From a virus, in IMG/VR virus record IMGVR_UViG_3300022687_000023, positions 1 through 38,828 of that record: a DNA stretch of 38,828 nt; one strand, written 5' to 3'. Positions 10,250 through 32,186 of this stretch are shown one piece after another. Each line of letters starts with the position of its first letter. Positions within the stretch are counted from its first letter, which is position 1. Below the pieces are notes generated by a model that was given only the letters and a program-made list of their open reading frames with translations, was not told the origin of the DNA and made no database searches. Made by a program: the position numbers and the translations under genes.

Positions 10250-10995
10250 CTATCCGCTCCGCACGCCGTTCAAAACATTGCGCGCCTCTGCCTCCATGAA
10301 GCGCACGCCGCGCCACAGGTCGGGTGTGACCGCGATGCCCTCCATCTCGAGACCGGCGCAAGCGGCGGCGTAGTCGAGCCCGTGAAACAGGATTGCCGAG
10401 CGGCCGTTCGCAATGACCGTGTCGGTTCGCCACTGCGTCGCGACCGCAAGGAAGGCAACGACGGTGTCGACGTTCTCCGGCCAGACGCCCGAATAGGAAG
10501 CATCGGCAGGCCCGAGAGACTGGGCGACCGCCGCAGCAACATTGTCTATAGCGGCATCTGAAAGTCCGAATCGCCGGGCGTCTGCGGTCGCTTCCGCACC
10601 GGCCTCGCGCTGTCGCGAAGGGCTGCTTTCGAGGCCGCCGGACGCCCACGCCCGAGCGGCCCATTTCAGTTTCCCTCCCGCGCGCCCGCGATGGAATCGA
10701 TGTAGGTGCGGATCAGTGCCGAGCGGCAGTCGGGTCGAGCTACGATCGCGTCGCGCAGTTCATCGGTGTAGGCGAGGGGCTTGCCCTGTGCATCGGCAAT
10801 GTCGCCGAGCTCGACGATGCATTCTCGAAGGAGATCCCTCACGCCCTCCGGCTGGCCCAGGTCGTGAGCTGCCATTTGGTCCGTCGTAAGCATTCGATAG
10901 GTGGCGGCCATAGTCTCCCGGCTATAACCGTCGTCCGTCGGGACCTTCACCGTCACCGTGCGCTTGAAGGTCGGACTGTCAGCAAGCTTCAGCAT
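10250..10995 (-). CDS. Tail assembly chaperone - DUF1799 fusion by -1 frameshift
   Basis: The frame after the chaperone stop encodes a DUF1799-like protein (VWPENVDTVVAFLAVATQW, GLDYAAACAGLEMEGI, TPDLWRGVRFMEAEARNVL) but has no ATG, GTG or TTG before the conserved VWPEN segment. It lies in the -1 frame relative to the chaperone. A slippery GGGAAAC (10675-10669) in the correct phase (G GGA AAC) precedes the TGA, and a 12-bp stem-loop follows after 7 nt. Slippage would give a 248-aa fusion (109 + 139 residues) ending at the TAG at 10250. This parallels lambda gpG/gpGT, where the extended product recruits tail tube subunits to the tape measure. Confidence 0.85.
10633..10675 (-). promoter_or_regulatory. 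Programmed -1 frameshift signal
   Basis: Read on the minus strand: GGGAAAC at 10675-10669, then the zero-frame stop TGA, a 7-nt spacer, and a stem-loop at 10661-10633. The stem is GGCCGC, bulged T, CGGGCG, loop TGGG, CGTCCG, GCGGCC: 12 pairs including one G-U. Slippery site, spacer and stem all have the layout of a -1 ribosomal frameshift signal; lambda uses GGGAAAG in the equivalent gene. Confidence 0.85.
10666..10995 (-). CDS. Tail assembly chaperone, short (zero-frame) form
   Basis: 109 aa. It follows the tail tube gene and precedes the tape measure, the place of lambda gpG. The N-terminus (MLKLADSPTFKRTVTVKVP) is beta-like, the rest helical, as in phage tail assembly chaperones. It ends at TGA 10668-10666 immediately after a GGGAAAC slippery heptamer, so it is probably the major product and the longer fusion the minor one. 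Confidence 0.85.
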   Translation of the reverse strand: MLKLADSPTFKRTVTVKVPTDDGYSRETMAATYRMLTTDQMAAHDLGQPEGVRDLLRECIVELGDIADAQGKPLAYTDELRDAIVARPDCRSALIRTYIDSIAGAREGN

Positions 10996-13631: not shown

Positions 13632-13707
13632 TGGTTGCGGGGGCAGGAGTCGAACCTGCGGCCTCCGGATTATGAGTCCGGCGCTCTGACCTCTGAGCTA
13701 CCCCGCC
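13632..13707 (-). tRNA. tRNA with CAU anticodon (Met-type), unpaired G1/A72
   Basis: A complete cloverleaf with encoded CCA. Acceptor GGCGGGG / CCCCGCA, D-stem GCTC/GAGC, anticodon stem CCGGA/TCCGG with loop CTCATAA (anticodon CAU), variable AGGCC, T-arm GCAGG-TTCGACT-CCTGC, discriminator A. Six acceptor pairs form, but G1 and A72 do not pair, a feature of initiator tRNAs; the 3' strand CCCCGCAACCA equals that of E. coli tRNA-fMet. The C11:G24 pair and A31:U39 pair are elongator-like. It begins 8 nt after the stop of the upstream protein gene, so it is inside the late mRNA. Met elongator, Ile2 (lysidine) or an initiator-like hybrid remain possible. Confidence 0.9.
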
Positions 13708-15419: not shown

Positions 15420-15875
15420 TCAGGCTTCGGGGTTGGTGATGCCGGCGAGGTAGGTCTGGACCATCGCTTCGTCGAAGCGCACCCAGACGCCAATCTCGTC
15501 GACATGATCGACGAAGCCGGCGATCGAGCGGGCGCCGGTACCATCCGTGGCCGCCACCGTTTCGTCATCCACGGCATAGGCCGGCATGCCGATGTGAGAG
15601 GCGTCGATTTCGTCGCCATCGGCCGAATTCGCGAAGCGGAAGACGCCCGGTCGGTAATCGGCCTCGACAGCGGCATCGGCGCCGCCCGTATTGTCGGCGC
15701 GGCTCTGGGTGCGGCCCACGCCGATCAAGCCTGTCGCGGTCTGCCCGGCGACGAGGAAGCCATCGGCGTCGCGCATGACGAGCGCGCCCTTGTAAAGAAC
15801 CTCGTCGGCTGCGACCCCGCCGCGACGGTCGGAGCCGATCGCTTCGGGGGTGTTACGGTCAGCGCTGAGCGCCAT
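15420..15875 (-). CDS. Capsid decoration/cement-like protein, 151 aa
   Basis: It lies between the protease/scaffold gene and the capsid gene, sharing a base with the gpI stop (TGATG). The sequence is beta-rich with capping-protein-like stretches (GALVMRDADGFLVAG, FRFANSADGDEIDAS) and no Cys. In Mu-like phages this position often carries a DUF2190-like or gpD-like decoration protein. Position and composition carry the call. Confidence 0.7.
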   Translation of the reverse strand: MALSADRNTPEAIGSDRRGGVAADEVLYKGALVMRDADGFLVAGQTATGLIGVGRTQSRADNTGGADAAVEADYRPGVFRFANSADGDEIDASHIGMPAYAVDDETVAATDGTGARSIAGFVDHVDEIGVWVRFDEAMVQTYLAGITNPEA

Positions 15876-16564
15876 CAGAGCACCTCCTGGGCTTTGGCCT
15901 CATTGGCCAGGGTTTTCTTGTAGGCGTCGGCGTCGAGGCCAAGCAGAGCGACCGCGCTCGAATGAGCGTCGCCCATTGCAGCTCCGCCGCCCTTCGGCTG
16001 TTCGGCGACGAGGCGTCCGCCATCGATCTTCGGCAGGGCCGAAAGCTCGGCCTTGACCTCTTCGAGGGCCGCGGCGCCAGCGCTCCCGCGCTTGATGTAG
16101 TGGTCGCGCAGCGCCTTCGCGCCAACGCGGCCTTCCTTGATCGCGCCATCGACCAGGGCCGTTGCCGCCTCGGTGCCGCGGTCCGCCTGCAGGGTCGCGA
16201 GTTTGGTGCCCAGCTCCTTCAACTCGGCGTGCAGCGCGGCGACGGTGTTGGCGTCGCCGCCGTTCCGGCTCAGCGTCTCGACGGCTGCCACGATCGCGTC
16301 GGCGCCGGCGTCATCCTTCAGGCCGGCCGCCTTGGCGACCTTCGCGAGGGTCGCTTTCGCCGCGCCGTCCTGGGCCAGCTTCTCGACGGCCACAAGGACA
16401 ACCTTACCGTCCGCGCCATCATCGAGGCCGGCGGCCTTGGCAAGGGCGGACATCTCTTCCTTGGCGGGCCCCTTCTTGAGCGCGGCAATGGCTTCCATCG
16501 CCGCCTCCTCGGTCGCGTCATCGGCAAGGCCTAGCGCCTTGCGCAGCTTGGCAAGCAAATCCAT
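15875..16564 (-). CDS. Z: Nested in-frame scaffold protein, Mu gpZ analogue
   Basis: Inside the gpI frame an ATG at 16564 (MDLLAKLRKALG) has AAGGAG 7 nt upstream, far better than the gpI start itself. It would give a 229-aa, almost wholly helical Ala/Lys/Glu-rich protein, as expected for an assembly scaffold. Mu uses the same arrangement, with Z starting within I in the same frame. Confidence 0.8.
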   Translation of the reverse strand: MDLLAKLRKALGLADDATEEAAMEAIAALKKGPAKEEMSALAKAAGLDDGADGKVVLVAVEKLAQDGAAKATLAKVAKAAGLKDDAGADAIVAAVETLSRNGGDANTVAALHAELKELGTKLATLQADRGTEAATALVDGAIKEGRVGAKALRDHYIKRGSAGAAALEEVKAELSALPKIDGGRLVAEQPKGGGAAMGDAHSSAVALLGLDADAYKKTLANEAKAQEVL

Positions 16565-17083
16565 GTCGTTGCTCCTTGAGTTCAGGGAAACCAGATCCGG
16601 CAGGCCTGGATCATTCGTCAGCGCAGCGCGCAGCAGCTCCAGCACGCGGCCGCTTTTCTCGTCATAGGTGAAGACCGGCGAGATGTGCCGATAGGCTTTG
16701 TCATCGAGCAGGGCCTTGCCGCTGTTGGTCCACTCAACCCGGCCATAGAGGCCGTCGCCGCGGGTCTGCAGTTCGACGATCCAGCCGCGCGCCGGCGCGG
16801 GCTCGCCGCGCTTGGCGGCGAAGTCAGTCGCATGGTCCTGGTCGATCACCAGCCTGCCGCCGCCTCGTTTCAGGCTGGCGCGAGCGATCACATCCAAATT
16901 CTCGCACTGGAAAGGCCCGCGACCGTCCACGGTCACGAAGCGACCGGCCGGCAGCAGCCGGACCCAGTCCGTCCCCTGCTCGAGCTCGGCCAGCGGGGCG
17001 GCCATGAGGGCCGTCGCCGGGAGGGCGTTGAGAATGGCTGTTGCGCTGGTGCGGTACATGACGGCACTATTGCCGCGACGCAC
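15875..17083 (-). CDS. I: Head maturation protease, Mu gpI family, with scaffold domain
   Basis: 402 aa from a GTG at 17083; an ATG at 17059 (MYRTSAT) is an alternative, and neither has a strong ribosome site. The N-terminal half (about 25-170) is the Mu I protease: WVRLLPAGRFVTVDGRGPF, VIDQDHATDF (with the catalytic-type His), ..YRHISPVFTYD. The second half is a long Ala/Lys/Glu-rich helical scaffold. In Mu, gpI cleaves scaffold and itself during head maturation. It is the first structural gene after the SIR2 cargo gene, and a hairpin lies just upstream. Confidence 0.9.
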   Translation of the reverse strand: MRRGNSAVMYRTSATAILNALPATALMAAPLAELEQGTDWVRLLPAGRFVTVDGRGPFQCENLDVIARASLKRGGGRLVIDQDHATDFAAKRGEPAPARGWIVELQTRGDGLYGRVEWTNSGKALLDDKAYRHISPVFTYDEKSGRVLELLRAALTNDPGLPDLVSLNSRSNDMDLLAKLRKALGLADDATEEAAMEAIAALKKGPAKEEMSALAKAAGLDDGADGKVVLVAVEKLAQDGAAKATLAKVAKAAGLKDDAGADAIVAAVETLSRNGGDANTVAALHAELKELGTKLATLQADRGTEAATALVDGAIKEGRVGAKALRDHYIKRGSAGAAALEEVKAELSALPKIDGGRLVAEQPKGGGAAMGDAHSSAVALLGLDADAYKKTLANEAKAQEVL

Positions 17084-17094
17084 GCAAAGATGTT

Positions 17095-17112
17095 CCCCGA
17101 AGGGCTTCGGGG
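17095..17112. terminator. CCCCGAA-TTCGGGG hairpin upstream of gpI
   Basis: CCCCGAA GGGC TTCGGGG: 7-bp stem, 4-nt loop, 158 nt after the stop of the SIR2 gene and 11 nt before the gpI GTG. It nearly equals the palindrome at 27563-27580. It may terminate the cargo transcript, or hide the gpI ribosome site in read-through RNA. Confidence 0.5.
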
Positions 17113-17269
17113 AGGGGAGCGATGGGCTGGCGGGTCAACGACCACTATGAAGAGGTGATGGAAGCGGATTAGCGACGGTGGCGCGTATCGCTGAAGCAGG
17201 TGTCTCGTACTGCCCTGTTCCTAGCGCCTGTCGCGGCGTTAGTTTTCGGATTCTGGCGGGGCTGACAGC
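17113..17269 (-). other. Non-coding gap between SIR2 cargo gene and gpI
   Basis: No gene is seen. In Mu a late, activator-dependent promoter (PI) lies upstream of gene I, so this is the expected place for one. A TTGACC reads on the minus strand at about 17138-17133 but no good -10 follows. Nothing firm can be called. Confidence 0.3.
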
Positions 17270-20200
17270 TTATCTGCGCTCAACGAGAGCGGGCGATTGT
17301 GCTGTAACTACGTTAATTGCAGTCGCTCCCCGGAAGGTGAAGGCAAGGTTGAATGTAACGTCTTCATAGAGCTGTATATTTTCCCAAGCTTCATGAGCGC
17401 TGTTGTTTTCATGCGCGAAAATATTCCGACCGTGAATCGGGCTCGCGATGAACACGTAGCCGACTTCCTGCTTGACGACTTGACCCTTGAAGATCGAAAG
17501 TTCTCCATCCTGATCGGTCAAGGAGGCTTTGGTCTGCCTTTTCGCCGCTGGGGAAACGTCGGCATCCTGCAAGCTGTCAAATATACTGTCGCTGGTGGCA
17601 AAGTCGCCTGCACGAAATAGCTCGCGTCCATACCAGAGCTGAGCGTCATAATTGCTGTCGCCATTCGAAAAGCCCGAGCGGAAATGCTGTATCGCCGAAC
17701 TCCGCTCGGCGGCATCGGACGATTCTGCGTGAAGCATACCTAGTCGCCAGTGAGCTGTCTTTGCCGTTGGGTGCTCAGAAATGACCTTCCGCAAGACGCT
17801 CTTTGCGGAAGCAACGTCGCCGCCATCGAGATAGAGATCCGCCAATCTGACAGCGATCCACTCCTGCCGCGAATTTGCAGTGAAGGCCCTCTCCAAGGCA
17901 AGTTTAGCCTTGGGCTCGTCGCTTATCGCGGTTCGATAGTTCGCCTCGGTGGTCAAAATGTACTCATCGTTCGGAAATAGAATCCGACCAGTCGATATCT
18001 CGGCTTCAATTTCCTTCATGCGCTCTACAAGGACGCGATCCCGGCCGCCTTCCTCAGCCTCTTCTCGGAGATGATCTTTCAATTCATCCACCAGAACTTG
18101 CAATCTAGTGTTGACCGCGTAGGCATGCCGGCGAGAACCGGAACCAAGGCGGTGGAGTGAACGGTGGCGGTACTGCTTTCGAAGAAGCGGATTGGTTTCT
18201 TCTAGCGCCTTCTTCCGATAAAGGACCGCCATCGAATGCTGAATGCTGGCATCGTGCTCAGCAAGCTTTTCGGCATCTCCTAGAAGTGACTCAGCGCGTC
18301 TGAGGTTGCCACCGCCGTGGTTCATCTCGAATATCGCTTCCTGCTGAAGCACATACGGGTCATCCTGTCCGACCGCTTCGCGCGCGACTTTATAGAGTGA
18401 CCGACCCATTTCCACCGAGGGGAAGGCGTCGACCACGGCGCGCCCTCGCGTCAAATGATCAAACGCCTCCTTGTCCACGGAGAAGCTGATGTTCAGACCG
18501 CCCAAGATTCGCAGAATCTGATTCAGCATGTCTTCATGACTCGACAGCGTCTCAGAGAAAACAATCTCCGCGACGTGAGGGTGTCTGGCACGATACAAAC
18601 GGTCGCCGATATAGCGGTCGTATTCGCTATAGACAATCTTCTCAAGGGGCCGAAACAGCTCCTTCTCGAACTCATCGAAATGGATGTCGGATACTCTGGC
18701 GATCACACCCGCACGTACCGGGACGCCGAACCGGTTAAGGGTACAGACGTCAAGATAAAGGAGCTTCGCAGAGTCGGGCGTAATGCGGGCGTATTCGTCA
18801 GCGACGATCTCTTCGAAGGGGCGCCCGAGGGTTGCCTCATGGAGTGCTACGAGGATCTGTCGTTGCGCCCTGTCCTTAAATGCTCTCACACGATCATCGG
18901 GCTTCAAGTCCGCCAAAAGTCCCAAAGCTCGGTGGGTCTGTAGCTTTTCGAGGAGCTCGCCAATCTCCAAGTCCGAAAGGTAGCGAACCGGGTAGGAATT
19001 CACTACAAATTCCTCTAGAGCCTCGCAACGCGTGTTCCATTCGTTGTCGCGTTCAGCAGCGACGACGCTCAGTTGCACTTTCCGAGTCTGCATCTGTTTT
19101 AGAAACTGCGACAGTTCCGAGACGCGGAGCGATGGGCGATCGACAAATAGAAAGATGCGGCGATTGGTGATTTCGTAGATTTCCTGAAAATGATTGGCGC
19201 GAAGCGCGCCGACATCGGAAAGATAGAAAACCAACGCGTCATAGTCGGTGGCCGCGTCCCATGCCGTTCGCTTAAGTGCTGTGGTCTTACCGTTACCGGC
19301 TGCTCCCTTGAGCACGAAGAGTTCGACTGGCTTCCTAGATGCGGTTTCTTCCTCGAGGACAGCGTCAACGAGAATAGTGTCGGAAACCTTCCGGCGAACG
19401 TCCATCTTTGCCAGGATGCCTGCAAATCCGCGGTCATAGCCCTTGTAGTAGTCGACTGGCGCCACTTGCTCGACCGGCATGCCGGACCGGACATGAAGGA
19501 TGTCGGTAGTGAGATACTGCACCGTGGTGTCGCTGTAGGTGCGGTTGCCTAGTACACGGAAGCGATCGATCGAAGGTGCGTCGGAAGGATTGATTTTAGA
19601 AAGTTTGCGGTTATTGGCGGGAATTTGCTGATCCAACTCCTTGAGAAACGCTTCAAAGGTCGCCTTGATCGCGGTAATGCGATTGGCTTGCCAGTCACGG
19701 GCTTCGATTTCATCGAACGTGGGCGAGACTACATAATATTGCGGCCGTCTCTGGTTCGCATTGAACAGGTCGAAAAGCACCGTTTGTACGTTCGGATCGT
19801 CGATGGAATAGCCGCAAAAGATTATGGGGAATTCGTGTCCCATGCCTTTGAGCATATCGAATAACCGCGACCGGTGCCGCGCGAAGGTGACATACTGATC
19901 GGATGTTATGATCAGCGGGGCTTCAGGGTCGTTCGAGTGATGCAGGCATCCGTGCAGTTTGAGGAATTTAAGCGGGTTCTGAAATTTTTTCGCATCTCTC
20001 TCTACAAGCTGGTCATTCTTAATGAAGGGTACCAGCGTTTGCAGCGACTGCTTATTTGTTTGGTATGCGCGGTCGACGATGAGATCATAATTGGTGGTCG
20101 CGATAGCGTGCCAATGAAATTCCGGTATCAGCTGGTGGAAGTCGGCGGGAGAAAAATCGATAAAGACATCCCTGAGATACGATTGCATCAACAGCAGTCC

Positions 20201-20443
20201 AGCCTCCGAAACACAATACCGTGCTACGACAGCAAGCGACCGATCCTTGAGCTTGCCGCCAAGAAATTTATCAGAAAGCAGATCCCTCAGGTCGTCTCCC
20301 TTGGGAGCGCGGGTTTGCGGATTCGGATGCTTGGCACCTCTGGATGCCCCGGATCCTAGGAACAAGATTGCATTGCCTTCGCGCACGGCGTCGATGAGCG
20401 TCGGCGGAAGGTTTAGCGGCGTTTGGTTCAAAATCCCCCCCAT
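17270..20443 (-). CDS. SIR2 - P-loop NTPase - TPR-like - cold-shock-like defence protein
   Basis: 1057 aa from the ATG at 20443 (a TTG at 20482 would add 13). SIR2-like domain, about 10-270: FLGSGAS (28-34), TTNYD with Asn118, KLHG with His164, GYSIDDPN (211-218), the usual NADase residues. P-loop domain from about 330: GAAGNGKT (380-387) and IFLFVD with Asp435. A long helical, TPR-like part follows (about 690-970). The end (987-1046) has a cold-shock/OB pattern: GYVFI, NIFAHE, VTFNL, RGATAINV. SIR2-STAND proteins such as Avs5 sense phage and deplete NAD; a defence role is inferred. Sampled 60-base lines are 40-47% GC against about 70% nearby, so it is recently acquired cargo in the late operon. 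No partner gene is seen. Confidence 0.85.
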   Translation of the reverse strand: MGGILNQTPLNLPPTLIDAVREGNAILFLGSGASRGAKHPNPQTRAPKGDDLRDLLSDKFLGGKLKDRSLAVVARYCVSEAGLLLMQSYLRDVFIDFSPADFHQLIPEFHWHAIATTNYDLIVDRAYQTNKQSLQTLVPFIKNDQLVERDAKKFQNPLKFLKLHGCLHHSNDPEAPLIITSDQYVTFARHRSRLFDMLKGMGHEFPIIFCGYSIDDPNVQTVLFDLFNANQRRPQYYVVSPTFDEIEARDWQANRITAIKATFEAFLKELDQQIPANNRKLSKINPSDAPSIDRFRVLGNRTYSDTTVQYLTTDILHVRSGMPVEQVAPVDYYKGYDRGFAGILAKMDVRRKVSDTILVDAVLEEETASRKPVELFVLKGAAGNGKTTALKRTAWDAATDYDALVFYLSDVGALRANHFQEIYEITNRRIFLFVDRPSLRVSELSQFLKQMQTRKVQLSVVAAERDNEWNTRCEALEEFVVNSYPVRYLSDLEIGELLEKLQTHRALGLLADLKPDDRVRAFKDRAQRQILVALHEATLGRPFEEIVADEYARITPDSAKLLYLDVCTLNRFGVPVRAGVIARVSDIHFDEFEKELFRPLEKIVYSEYDRYIGDRLYRARHPHVAEIVFSETLSSHEDMLNQILRILGGLNISFSVDKEAFDHLTRGRAVVDAFPSVEMGRSLYKVAREAVGQDDPYVLQQEAIFEMNHGGGNLRRAESLLGDAEKLAEHDASIQHSMAVLYRKKALEETNPLLRKQYRHRSLHRLGSGSRRHAYAVNTRLQVLVDELKDHLREEAEEGGRDRVLVERMKEIEAEISTGRILFPNDEYILTTEANYRTAISDEPKAKLALERAFTANSRQEWIAVRLADLYLDGGDVASAKSVLRKVISEHPTAKTAHWRLGMLHAESSDAAERSSAIQHFRSGFSNGDSNYDAQLWYGRELFRAGDFATSDSIFDSLQDADVSPAAKRQTKASLTDQDGELSIFKGQVVKQEVGYVFIASPIHGRNIFAHENNSAHEAWENIQLYEDVTFNLAFTFRGATAINVVTAQSPALVERR

Positions 20444-20635
20444 AGCCGAAAAGTCGAACAGCAACTCTAGTTTTGAATTCAAAGCAGAGTAATGCGCCTC
20501 GCCTCGTATTAAAATCGATTTTGAAGGGGCTTAAAAGCCCGTCGAAGGGCTCAAAAGTCTTTCGTGGGCCCTGGACACTAGCCAAGGTCGGCAGACGGTC
20601 TCTAAGGATCTGTGACGATCGCCGCTGGAGTGGGC
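20444..20635 (-). promoter_or_regulatory. AT-rich region upstream of SIR2 cargo gene, with hairpin
   Basis: The stop of gpF and the cargo gene start are about 190 bases apart, unlike the overlapping genes around. GGGCT (20527-20531) and AGCCC (20536-20540) form a short hairpin that could end the gpF transcript. Downstream on the minus strand lies an AT-rich stretch with a -10-like TAATAC near 20510. This suggests a private promoter for the cargo gene, but no strong -35 is seen. Confidence 0.35.
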
Positions 20636-21277
20636 CTACCTGAGCCGCTCCCAGGCAACTCCCACATTGCCCGACCAGCCTGGATCGGGCGGGATCGCCA
20701 AGCGCGGGTCATCGCCGGGCGTGATGGAATACGCGTAGCGGGCGAGATCGCGCTCAGAAAGGCTCTGGGCGTAACAGCGGCACTGGAAGCCGTTCGGCGG
20801 ATAGTGCGTCAGCCAAAATGGATCATCGACGGGCAGCACGACACCGTGCCACTCGCGGTGCGTCTCGCGCACACGAGGGTCGTTAGCCGTCACATAGCGA
20901 ATATAGGGTCGAATGCGCTTGAGCTGCTGGATCTGCGCCCAGCGGCCCGCGGCGCGCGCATTCGCTGTCTGCACCCGAAAGATCAGATTCGCGCGCCGGC
21001 CGGCGTCCTCTTCGCCATCGCTCCAGCCATACTCGGCGACGATGCGATCATACTCCCTGCGGAAGTCGGCCGCCGTGCCGCCTTTCTCCATGATTTCCAG
21101 TATCGCTTTCAGCATGTCCTGACGGAGCGCCTCGGCCGCCTGGTCGGCCGCGCTGCTTGAGGCAGTATCGGCGCCGGCTAGAACTGCCCGCCACTGCGTT
21201 TCGCTGATCCCCAGCTGGCCCCGCAGGAAGTCGATCGCCTCCTGGAACCGGACCGCGAATTCCCTTGCGTCAGCCAT
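20636..21277 (-). CDS. F: Minor head/morphogenesis protein, Mu gpF family (short)
   Basis: 213 aa. The gpF/SPP1 gp7-type core is visible: VQTANARAAGRWAQI (about 117-131), RPYIRYVTANDPRVRETHRE (about 138-157), W-HGVVLPVDDPFW, and HYPPNGFQCRC (about 173-183) with its two Cys. Mu gpF is about twice as long, so this is a reduced form; the first 100 residues are a helical linker. Its start overlaps the portal gene by 8 bases. It precedes the cargo gene but its C-terminus looks complete. Confidence 0.85.
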   Translation of the reverse strand: MADAREFAVRFQEAIDFLRGQLGISETQWRAVLAGADTASSSAADQAAEALRQDMLKAILEIMEKGGTAADFRREYDRIVAEYGWSDGEEDAGRRANLIFRVQTANARAAGRWAQIQQLKRIRPYIRYVTANDPRVRETHREWHGVVLPVDDPFWLTHYPPNGFQCRCYAQSLSERDLARYAYSITPGDDPRLAIPPDPGWSGNVGVAWERLR

Positions 21278-30839: not shown

Positions 30840-31504
30840 CACAGCACCGCGATGTCGATGGGGATGGGCTCCCACTTCGCCTGTGCATTCTCGCGCCGGT
30901 GAAAACGGACATAGGAGCTGGAGCTCGACACGCGCATGGAGTCGGTCAGCGCCTCCATTGCGCGGCTCCAGGCGTCGTCTTCGATGTTGAGGCGGCGGAG
31001 CTGGTAGAGCGCCGCCCGGTTGATCTGGCCCTCCTTGTCGACCTGGAAGGCGTGGTCGATCAGAGCTTGCAGCTCTGGACGCGTGCCCTCGGCCCATCCG
31101 GAAATGCATTCGTCGACGAGCTTCTTGGCGACCTGCATTTCAGGGCCGAAGGTGAGATGGTCCTGGACCTGCAGCGTCACCTTGAGGGTGCCGTCGAAGC
31201 TGGTCAGCGTCAGGTTGCCTTTCCTGCCGCCGATCGAGGTGCCGTATTTCTCCGCCAGCAGCTCGCGCAGCGCGGCCACGTCGTCATGAGTATGGCCCTT
31301 GAAGCGCTTGATCTGGGCCGACAGGTCGTTGGCATAGCCGATGATGCTCCGCACCGTCTGGTCCATCAGCTTGTCCACGTCCTTCACGCATTCGACGGGC
31401 ACGAGCGCGCCGCGCGTGTCGCGCATGTAGGTCTTTCCGGCGATCTCCTCGACGGCGTCGCCGACCGCATCGATCGGCGGATTCTCAGTGGTGACGGAGT
31501 CCAT
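30839..31504 (-). CDS. DUF3164 protein
   Basis: 221 aa from the ATG at 31504 (MDSVTTEN). Typical DUF3164 pieces: YMRDTRGALVPVECVKDVDK (about 27-46), QIKRFKGHTHDDVAALRELL followed by AEKYG (about 64-88), GNLTLTSFDGTLKV (about 95-108), and LQALIDHAFQVDKEGQINRA (about 147-166). DUF3164 is frequent in early operons of Mu-like phages; function unknown. Confidence 0.88.
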   Translation of the reverse strand: MDSVTTENPPIDAVGDAVEEIAGKTYMRDTRGALVPVECVKDVDKLMDQTVRSIIGYANDLSAQIKRFKGHTHDDVAALRELLAEKYGTSIGGRKGNLTLTSFDGTLKVTLQVQDHLTFGPEMQVAKKLVDECISGWAEGTRPELQALIDHAFQVDKEGQINRAALYQLRRLNIEDDAWSRAMEALTDSMRVSSSSSYVRFHRRENAQAKWEPIPIDIAVL

Positions 31505-32186
31505 CCTCGTTTCCTTTCTCTTGGCAGGGTGTTGGGGCAGCGCCGTCGTGTGCCGCGACGGCATGTTTGAGAGCGACAAGTGCGCGATTGAAGACGATTG
31601 CTGCGTTACGGCTCGCGGCGACAGTTGCAGCCGCGTCATGGGCTTTGCTGAGTGCGCGGGCTGCGGTGATCACCTTTTCCCGCAACGGATGGGTGGTTGC
31701 CGCGTCCGGCTCGGCAGCGTGAGCCGTGAGCCGCTTGCAGGACGCTACGACTTCGTTGAGGCGCGCCGCCAGGCGGAGGCTTTCGTTCACCGAGCGGCTC
31801 AGCTCGTCGCTCAGCTTGTCGACTGCGTCGGAACTAAGCGTGCGCGCCGCCTCCTGGTCGGGAGTAGCAGTCAGGCCGAGGGCATCCTCTATCGCGGCGA
31901 TGTCCTTCCGCAGCCGAGGATTCTTGCAGCACTCACGCTCGACCTTCTTGACGGCGTGGACGACCGTCGTGTGATCGCGGCCGCCCAATGCGTGGCCAAT
32001 GGTCGGGAGGCTGTGAGGAGTACGGTGCGCAGCGATATAGGCGATGACCTGGCGAGCCAGCACATAGGGTTGGTGACGCCGCGCGCTCAGAATCGGCGGA
32101 ACGTTCAGGCCGTAATATCTGGCTGTCTCCTTGGTGATCGCCTTGACCGAAGGCGCTCCTTTCAGGTGGCGAAACTCCTTGCTCAT
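31485..32186 (-). CDS. DnaA domain IV-like DNA-binding protein
   Basis: 233 aa. Residues about 35-82 carry the DnaA C-terminal HTH: RRHQPYVLARQVIAYIAAHR, SLPTIGHALGGRDHTTVVHA and VKKVERE, including the GGRDHTTV signature that reads the DnaA box. There is no AAA+ domain, so it cannot act as a full initiator. The rest (about 105-225) is helical and Ala-rich. It overlaps DUF3164 by 20 bases. It may bind host DnaA boxes or phage sites near the transposition/replication genes. Confidence 0.85.
   Translation of the reverse strand: MSKEFRHLKGAPSVKAITKETARYYGLNVPPILSARRHQPYVLARQVIAYIAAHRTPHSLPTIGHALGGRDHTTVVHAVKKVERECCKNPRLRKDIAAIEDALGLTATPDQEAARTLSSDAVDKLSDELSRSVNESLRLAARLNEVVASCKRLTAHAAEPDAATTHPLREKVITAARALSKAHDAAATVAASRNAAIVFNRALVALKHAVAAHDGAAPTPCQEKGNEDGLRHH

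Follow-up and report, generated by a model that had tools for sequence, protein, structure and literature searches.

A SIR2–STAND gene with a C-terminal cold-shock domain as a probable antiphage cassette of a Mu-like phage

The window analysed here, 38,828 nucleotides of DNA, is one whole IMG/VR record (IMGVR_UViG_3300022687_000023) and represents a Mu-like phage whose late genes are encoded on the minus strand. Two of these, gpF and gpI, flank a gene encoding, in order, a SIR2 domain, an nSTAND5 NTPase, TPR-type repeats and a cold-shock domain (CSD). At a probability of roughly three in four, this gene is a prophage-carried, single-gene SIR2–STAND antiphage system, in which the TPR and CSD parts would act as sensor, the NTPase would oligomerise and the SIR2 domain would deplete NAD+, and which would travel as a mobile cassette lodged in an F–I hotspot.

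The coding sequence was placed at positions 17270–20443 on the minus strand (1057 amino acids), based on the open reading frame, the start of related proteins and the DNA match to the nearest relative, a Nitratireductor locus (L008). The longest form of the reading frame, 17270–20482 (minus strand), starts at a TTG at 20482, encodes 1070 amino acids and is open throughout; by sequence comparison the ATG at 20443 is the likelier start, because relatives start nearby and DNA similarity to L008 begins at 20440. This similarity (78.6% at the nucleotide level over 17310–20440) is confined to the coding region, and the comparison with L008 (dN of 0.108, dS of 1.18; dN/dS about 0.1) shows strong purifying selection on the gene. 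Mu gpF (MuF) lies upstream (20636–21277, minus strand) and the Mu I protease/scaffold downstream (15875–17083, minus strand); the reading frame and these neighbouring families confirmed the view, put forward in the preliminary description, of a single intact gene between gpF and gpI of a Mu-like phage. The extent first given, 17270–20635, was correct at the stop codon (17270), whereas its other end takes in about 190 bp of upstream gap; the residue numbers N118, H164 and K386 are consistent with the 1057-residue form. Two hairpins described at 20527–20540 and 17095–17112 are present, but they were rejected as terminators bounding the gene: their stability is unexceptional (z = −0.36 and −1.56, respectively), and a terminator scan flagged neither. 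Consensus scans returned no promoter upstream and no terminator belonging to the gene, with a consensus that may not be that of the host. Direct repeats around the gene comprised only short, divergent two-copy matches, and no insertion mechanism was drawn from them.

A genome scan returned 419 relatives; the best 80 were kept, and the aligned near-full-length set comprised 78 sequences. The SIR2, NTPase, TPR and cold-shock parts proposed earlier, as well as the intact catalytic residues, were borne out by Pfam, by this 78-member alignment and by structure models. The SIR2 domain (amino acids ~14–273; 19625–20404, minus strand) matched Pfam SIR2_2 at 6e-22, above the cut-off, and its GxG (G30/G32), TTNYD (N118/D120), HG (H164) and D216 residues are invariant across the alignment. 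The nSTAND_NTPase5 domain (PF25199; amino acids ~331–476; 19016–19453, minus strand) matched at 4e-30 (3.8e-30; 105 bits against a gathering threshold of 34), and contains a Walker A motif, GAAGNGKT (380–387), whose lysine K386 is kept in 76 of 78 members, a Walker B D435 (74/78) and R465 (77/78). Family conservation and the full model mark residues 477–680 (18404–19015, minus strand), directly after the NTPase, as the most conserved helical region, and this is followed by TPR-type helical repeats (amino acids ~681–960; 17564–18403, minus strand) that were recognised by Pfam TPR matches and appear as tandem helices in the model. Profile searches with the SIR2 domain matched the solved defence NADases ThsA, KomC, DSR2 and EfAvs5, and those with the NTPase matched EfAvs5 (5e-11) and then NLR P-loops. 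The full-length model had a pLDDT of 87.2 overall and a pTM of 0.64; when it was searched against the PDB by fold, EfAvs5 was the best match (4e-24), followed by human SAMD9 (1e-17) and then DSR2, with low full-length TM scores of 0.2–0.4. Given this pTM and these TM scores, the placement of the domains relative to one another in the full model is unsure. A fold search of viral structures gave partial ATPase/TPR matches only.

The C-terminal domain (amino acids 985–1047; 17303–17491, minus strand) was below the Pfam CSD cut-off when the window protein was searched alone (18.7 bits against 27), and 53 of 74 C-terminal pieces from the family matched the same model. A C-terminal family profile matched solved cold-shock domains (UNR, 2e-12; CspE and CspA, 4e-9). 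The OB or cold-shock fold anticipated for these residues was obtained with AlphaFold2 as a five-strand barrel (pLDDT 87.7), for which Foldseek returned the YBX1, CspA and UNR cold-shock domains, with a TMt of up to 0.82 (YBX1 CSD). Residues Y996, F998, F1009 and H1011 occupy RNP1/RNP2-like places; across the 78 sequences, position 996 is Y/F in 68, 998 is F in 69 and 1009 is F/Y in 74, and H1011 is kept in only about half. Profile and model together thus confirm the assignment as a cold-shock domain with its RNP1/RNP2 aromatics mostly kept. The preliminary description had taken this end domain to be the new element, a view that did not hold. The domain stands at the protein end in all 78 aligned relatives, so that the four-domain order is, on the alignment, a trait of the family and not something assembled by this phage; moreover, the arrangement Sir2–NTPase–TPR–OB, with an OB most similar to cold-shock proteins, had been published in 2017 for the SAMD9 family, bacteria included (PMC5445408).

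The 78 relatives are spread over about 12 phyla, and within one order the gene was present in 4 of 347 genomes, counting the genome chosen as centre. Deposited phages, searched by tblastn, yielded no relative of the gene, and PADLOC, which has no dedicated model for the family, gave matches to the SIR2 part alone. The gene is poorer in GC than its neighbours, as first described (53.7% against 65.2% for the rest of the window). As a mark of recent capture this observation did not stand: the gene has less GC than its flanks at 75 of the 77 loci of the family, by a mean of 8.7 points, which makes low GC weak evidence of recent capture and a habit of the gene, and its use as proof of recent transfer was rejected.

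Several relatives occupy mobile elements. Those in the P4-like satellites L089 and L090 lie between psu and the integrase, and one in the P2-like phage L091 adjoins the portal gene; both sites are published antiviral defence hotspots (PMC9122126). Other relatives are plasmid-borne. The annotation splits a Klebsiella plasmid copy (L006, 2995–6015) into a SIR2 piece and a second piece for the remainder, and this copy is likely a broken gene. Beside the Nitratireductor relative, TnsA-like, TniA-like, TniB and TniQ genes are found (L008, 14927–20511), with a C5 methylase gene upstream, and this copy is probably cargo of a Tn7-like element with defence genes. Running PADLOC on the neighbours of relatives identified methylases, BrxHI, DpdF and PsyrT, a result obtained with no control set and from which no enrichment is claimed.

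In Mu-like phages, the F–I interval itself was then compared. A related phage (L096; 59–76% protein identity over most head genes) lacks the gene at this site, and in the L243 prophage, where it is also absent, the gap is only about 260 bp; the empty site, the short gap and the GC difference are the features looked for in a phage moron, and the cargo status proposed earlier is supported by the phage without the gene and by a GC content unlike that of the rest of the window. Across 83 Mu-like phages the interval measures about 0.3–6 kb, as estimated from tblastn ends, and part of this variation reflects the location of G in the interval in many phages. Other phages carry at this site a full-length Cas13a (L141, 4054–7731; PADLOC 3e-251), RmrA with a weak RmrT (L168), a PDC-S49 KAP NTPase (L158), PDC-M19B (L175) or, in Rhodobacter phage RC1, a SocA/Panacea protein. 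Based on its variable size, on these genes and on the low-GC accessory region RGP G, which holds anti-CRISPR genes in P. aeruginosa Mu-like phages (PMC4378225), the F–I interval is read as an accessory, defence-cargo hotspot of Mu-like phages. The gene itself is best read, from its sequence contexts, as a one-gene cassette moving horizontally between mobile elements. Exact searches of viral contigs for the two junctions found no second record with either, and the insertion is thus seen once.

A 25-bp element, GCTTTTAAGCCCCTTCAAAATCGAT, lies upstream of the gene (20514–20538, minus strand); it is single-copy, and five shuffled patterns gave 0 matches. It also occurs with 2–3 mismatches in the F–I gaps of L243 (3407, minus strand), L140 (6885) and L142 (8326). 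Its site is near the genome centre, and the strong gyrase site of Mu is presumably at about the same place. Elsewhere in the window, a tRNA-Met (CAU) is encoded near gpJ in the same sense as the late genes (13632–13707, minus strand), and no tRNA was found in the 25 related Mu-like loci examined. The early/middle region encodes a protein with a DnaA C-terminal DNA-binding domain (31485–32186, minus strand).

The most likely mechanism is drawn by analogy with Avs5. In the lysogen the protein would rest in an off state until the TPR array and/or the C-terminal CSD binds a sign of infection, be it a phage protein, RNA of phage or host origin, or both; the NTPase would then bind nucleotide and oligomerise, and the oligomer would activate the SIR2 domains, so that NAD+ is hydrolysed and the infected cell is arrested. 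The protein would probably bring about host shutdown upon attack by another virus. The data establish the domain architecture, the intact active sites, the purifying selection and the location in a hotspot, whereas we infer that the protein is an NADase, that it oligomerises and defends, and that its TPR and CSD parts sense the cue. The antiphage role proposed in the preliminary description gains support from the related phage without the gene, the relatives in phage defence hotspots and the defence genes of other Mu-like phages at F–I. Being co-oriented with the late head genes, the gene is probably transcribed late unless regulated, and read-through from them would yield protein at a late stage of this phage's cycle. 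Tolerance could then be explained by a sensor that is blind to its own phage, by an effect that arrives too late or by a switch. Silencing of a prophage-borne defence by a small antisense gene is documented for S. aureus prophages (PMC11087260). An analogy with this arrangement is not claimed, since the antisense ORF downstream of the gene (MGWR...; 17122–17265, plus strand) is broken by a TAG at codon 17; it is likely a remnant of an ORF that is intact in L096 (57 amino acids). The intact L096 version (10668–10841, minus strand) is membrane-like and convergent with gpF, their stop codons standing about 10 bp apart.

Within this mechanism the cold-shock end may serve as a sensor, as a tether or as a lock, and sensing of nucleic acid, as proposed in the preliminary description, would be one such role. 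At somewhat less than even odds, the protein is a defence NADase in which the CSD serves instead as an RNA or ribosome tether or as an off-state lock, the TPR array alone recognising a phage protein as in Avs5, whose activation depends on a C-terminal repeat domain lacking an OB and is triggered by a protein, JADA (PMC12931631). The CSD also belongs to the less well conserved regions of the protein (71% between the window and L008, against 90% for the NTPase), yet its presence in every near-full-length member, with the RNP-like aromatics mostly kept, implies selection for something. A general stress or cell-death switch, responding to RNA or translation damage with only indirect benefit to the prophage, is suggested by the domain order shared with SAMD9, which acts in the control of stress, of viruses and of growth (PMC5445408), and by the spread of the family over so many phyla; it is nevertheless unlikely, as the sporadic occurrence within one order and the recurrence in hotspots of phages and satellites point to defence cargo rather than core physiology.

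The position of the gene, between two late head genes and in their orientation, would also suit a protein that protects replication of the phage itself or that the virion delivers, in a structural or early role. Such a role is very improbable, because L096 has the same head genes without it, L243 has only its short gap there, relatives are found in plasmids, in satellites and in a Tn7-like element, and no virion-protein family was matched. Least probable of all is an assembly chimera, in which a host or plasmid defence gene was wrongly joined to a phage contig: the junctions were not recovered in a second record and the GC of the gene is unlike that of its flanks, but phage late genes stand on both sides in the correct order, the site coincides exactly with the F–I hotspot that other phages use, and an intergenic element of phage type is found immediately upstream. 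A mobile SIR2–STAND antiphage gene accounts best for these observations.

Among known systems, Avs5 (AVAST type 5; EfAvs5, 9jap, and PaAvs5) is likewise a single protein with an N-terminal SIR2_2 domain, a STAND NTPase and C-terminal helical repeats, and EfAvs5 was the best PDB match both by fold and by NTPase profile. Activation of Avs5 leads to NAD+ hydrolysis, for which the SIR2 and Walker residues are required, and its authors had already remarked on a similarity to SAMD9 (PMC12931631). Avs5 combines nSTAND3 (PF20720) with helical repeats only and has no C-terminal OB (PMC12931631), whereas the phage gene's family combines nSTAND5 with a cold-shock domain; this family keeps the HG motif, in place of which about half of Avs5 have NG. 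A Pfam search of the window protein gave no nSTAND3 match at E<=1, and with nSTAND5 matched instead, Avs5 membership was rejected.

SAMD9/SAMD9L, of animals and some bacteria, share the same core order of Sir2-like domain, P-loop NTPase, TPR and C-terminal OB. Their Walker A has glycine (GGT/S) where the phage gene's family keeps lysine, and the family lacks both the SAM domain and AlbA_2, which is N-terminal in the SAMD9 family and lost in some members; Pfam found no AlbA_2 in the window protein at E<=1. The NTPase profile did not match SAMD9 chains significantly (E 0.05–0.09), in contrast to the fold. Because the family does not have glycine in Walker A and its sequence similarity to SAMD9 fell short of significance, SAMD9 membership is not claimed, and on profiles and models the family is called a SIR2–STAND sensor variant, co-linear with SAMD9 and claimed as a member of neither group. 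A further, rather doubtful suggestion is that the family is the bacterial antiphage counterpart of the SAMD9 core and the CSD a true nucleic-acid sensor, so that phage or damaged host RNA bound there would release the SIR2–STAND NADase; if so, the family would represent an RNA-gated Avs5 relative and would have ancestry and logic in common with SAMD9.

DSR1/DSR2 have in common an N-terminal SIR2 NADase on a helical protein of ~1000 amino acids (fold matches from 5e-12), and DSR2 is not known to have a STAND NTPase or a CSD; the window protein scored 30.5 bits against NCBIfam Dsr2 (NF041819), for which the equivalog cut-off is 1400. Thoeris ThsA, the best PADLOC match (2.6e-16), shares the SIR2 domain and joins it to a C-terminal domain to which the signal of a TIR partner binds; unlike in Thoeris, no TIR partner gene was noticed beside the phage gene.

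We take RGP G of Mu-like phages to be exactly the pre-protease interval. It resembles the present site in holding variable low-GC cargo within a Mu-like genome, and differs in that its cargo is small anti-CRISPR ORFs (PMC4378225), compared with a 3.2-kb predicted defence gene here. The F–I interval of Mu-like phages is thereby indicated as a defence-gene hotspot (SIR2–STAND, Cas13a, Rmr and others) and as a place to seek new systems. SIR2–STAND sensors as such are known already; the branch described here, with nSTAND5 and a cold-shock domain, is widespread without a PADLOC model of its own, and a search of the open literature found no paper pairing nSTAND with a cold-shock domain. With the core order of SAMD9 and intact active sites, it may offer a simple bacterial system in which to ask what the OB of SAMD9-like proteins senses.
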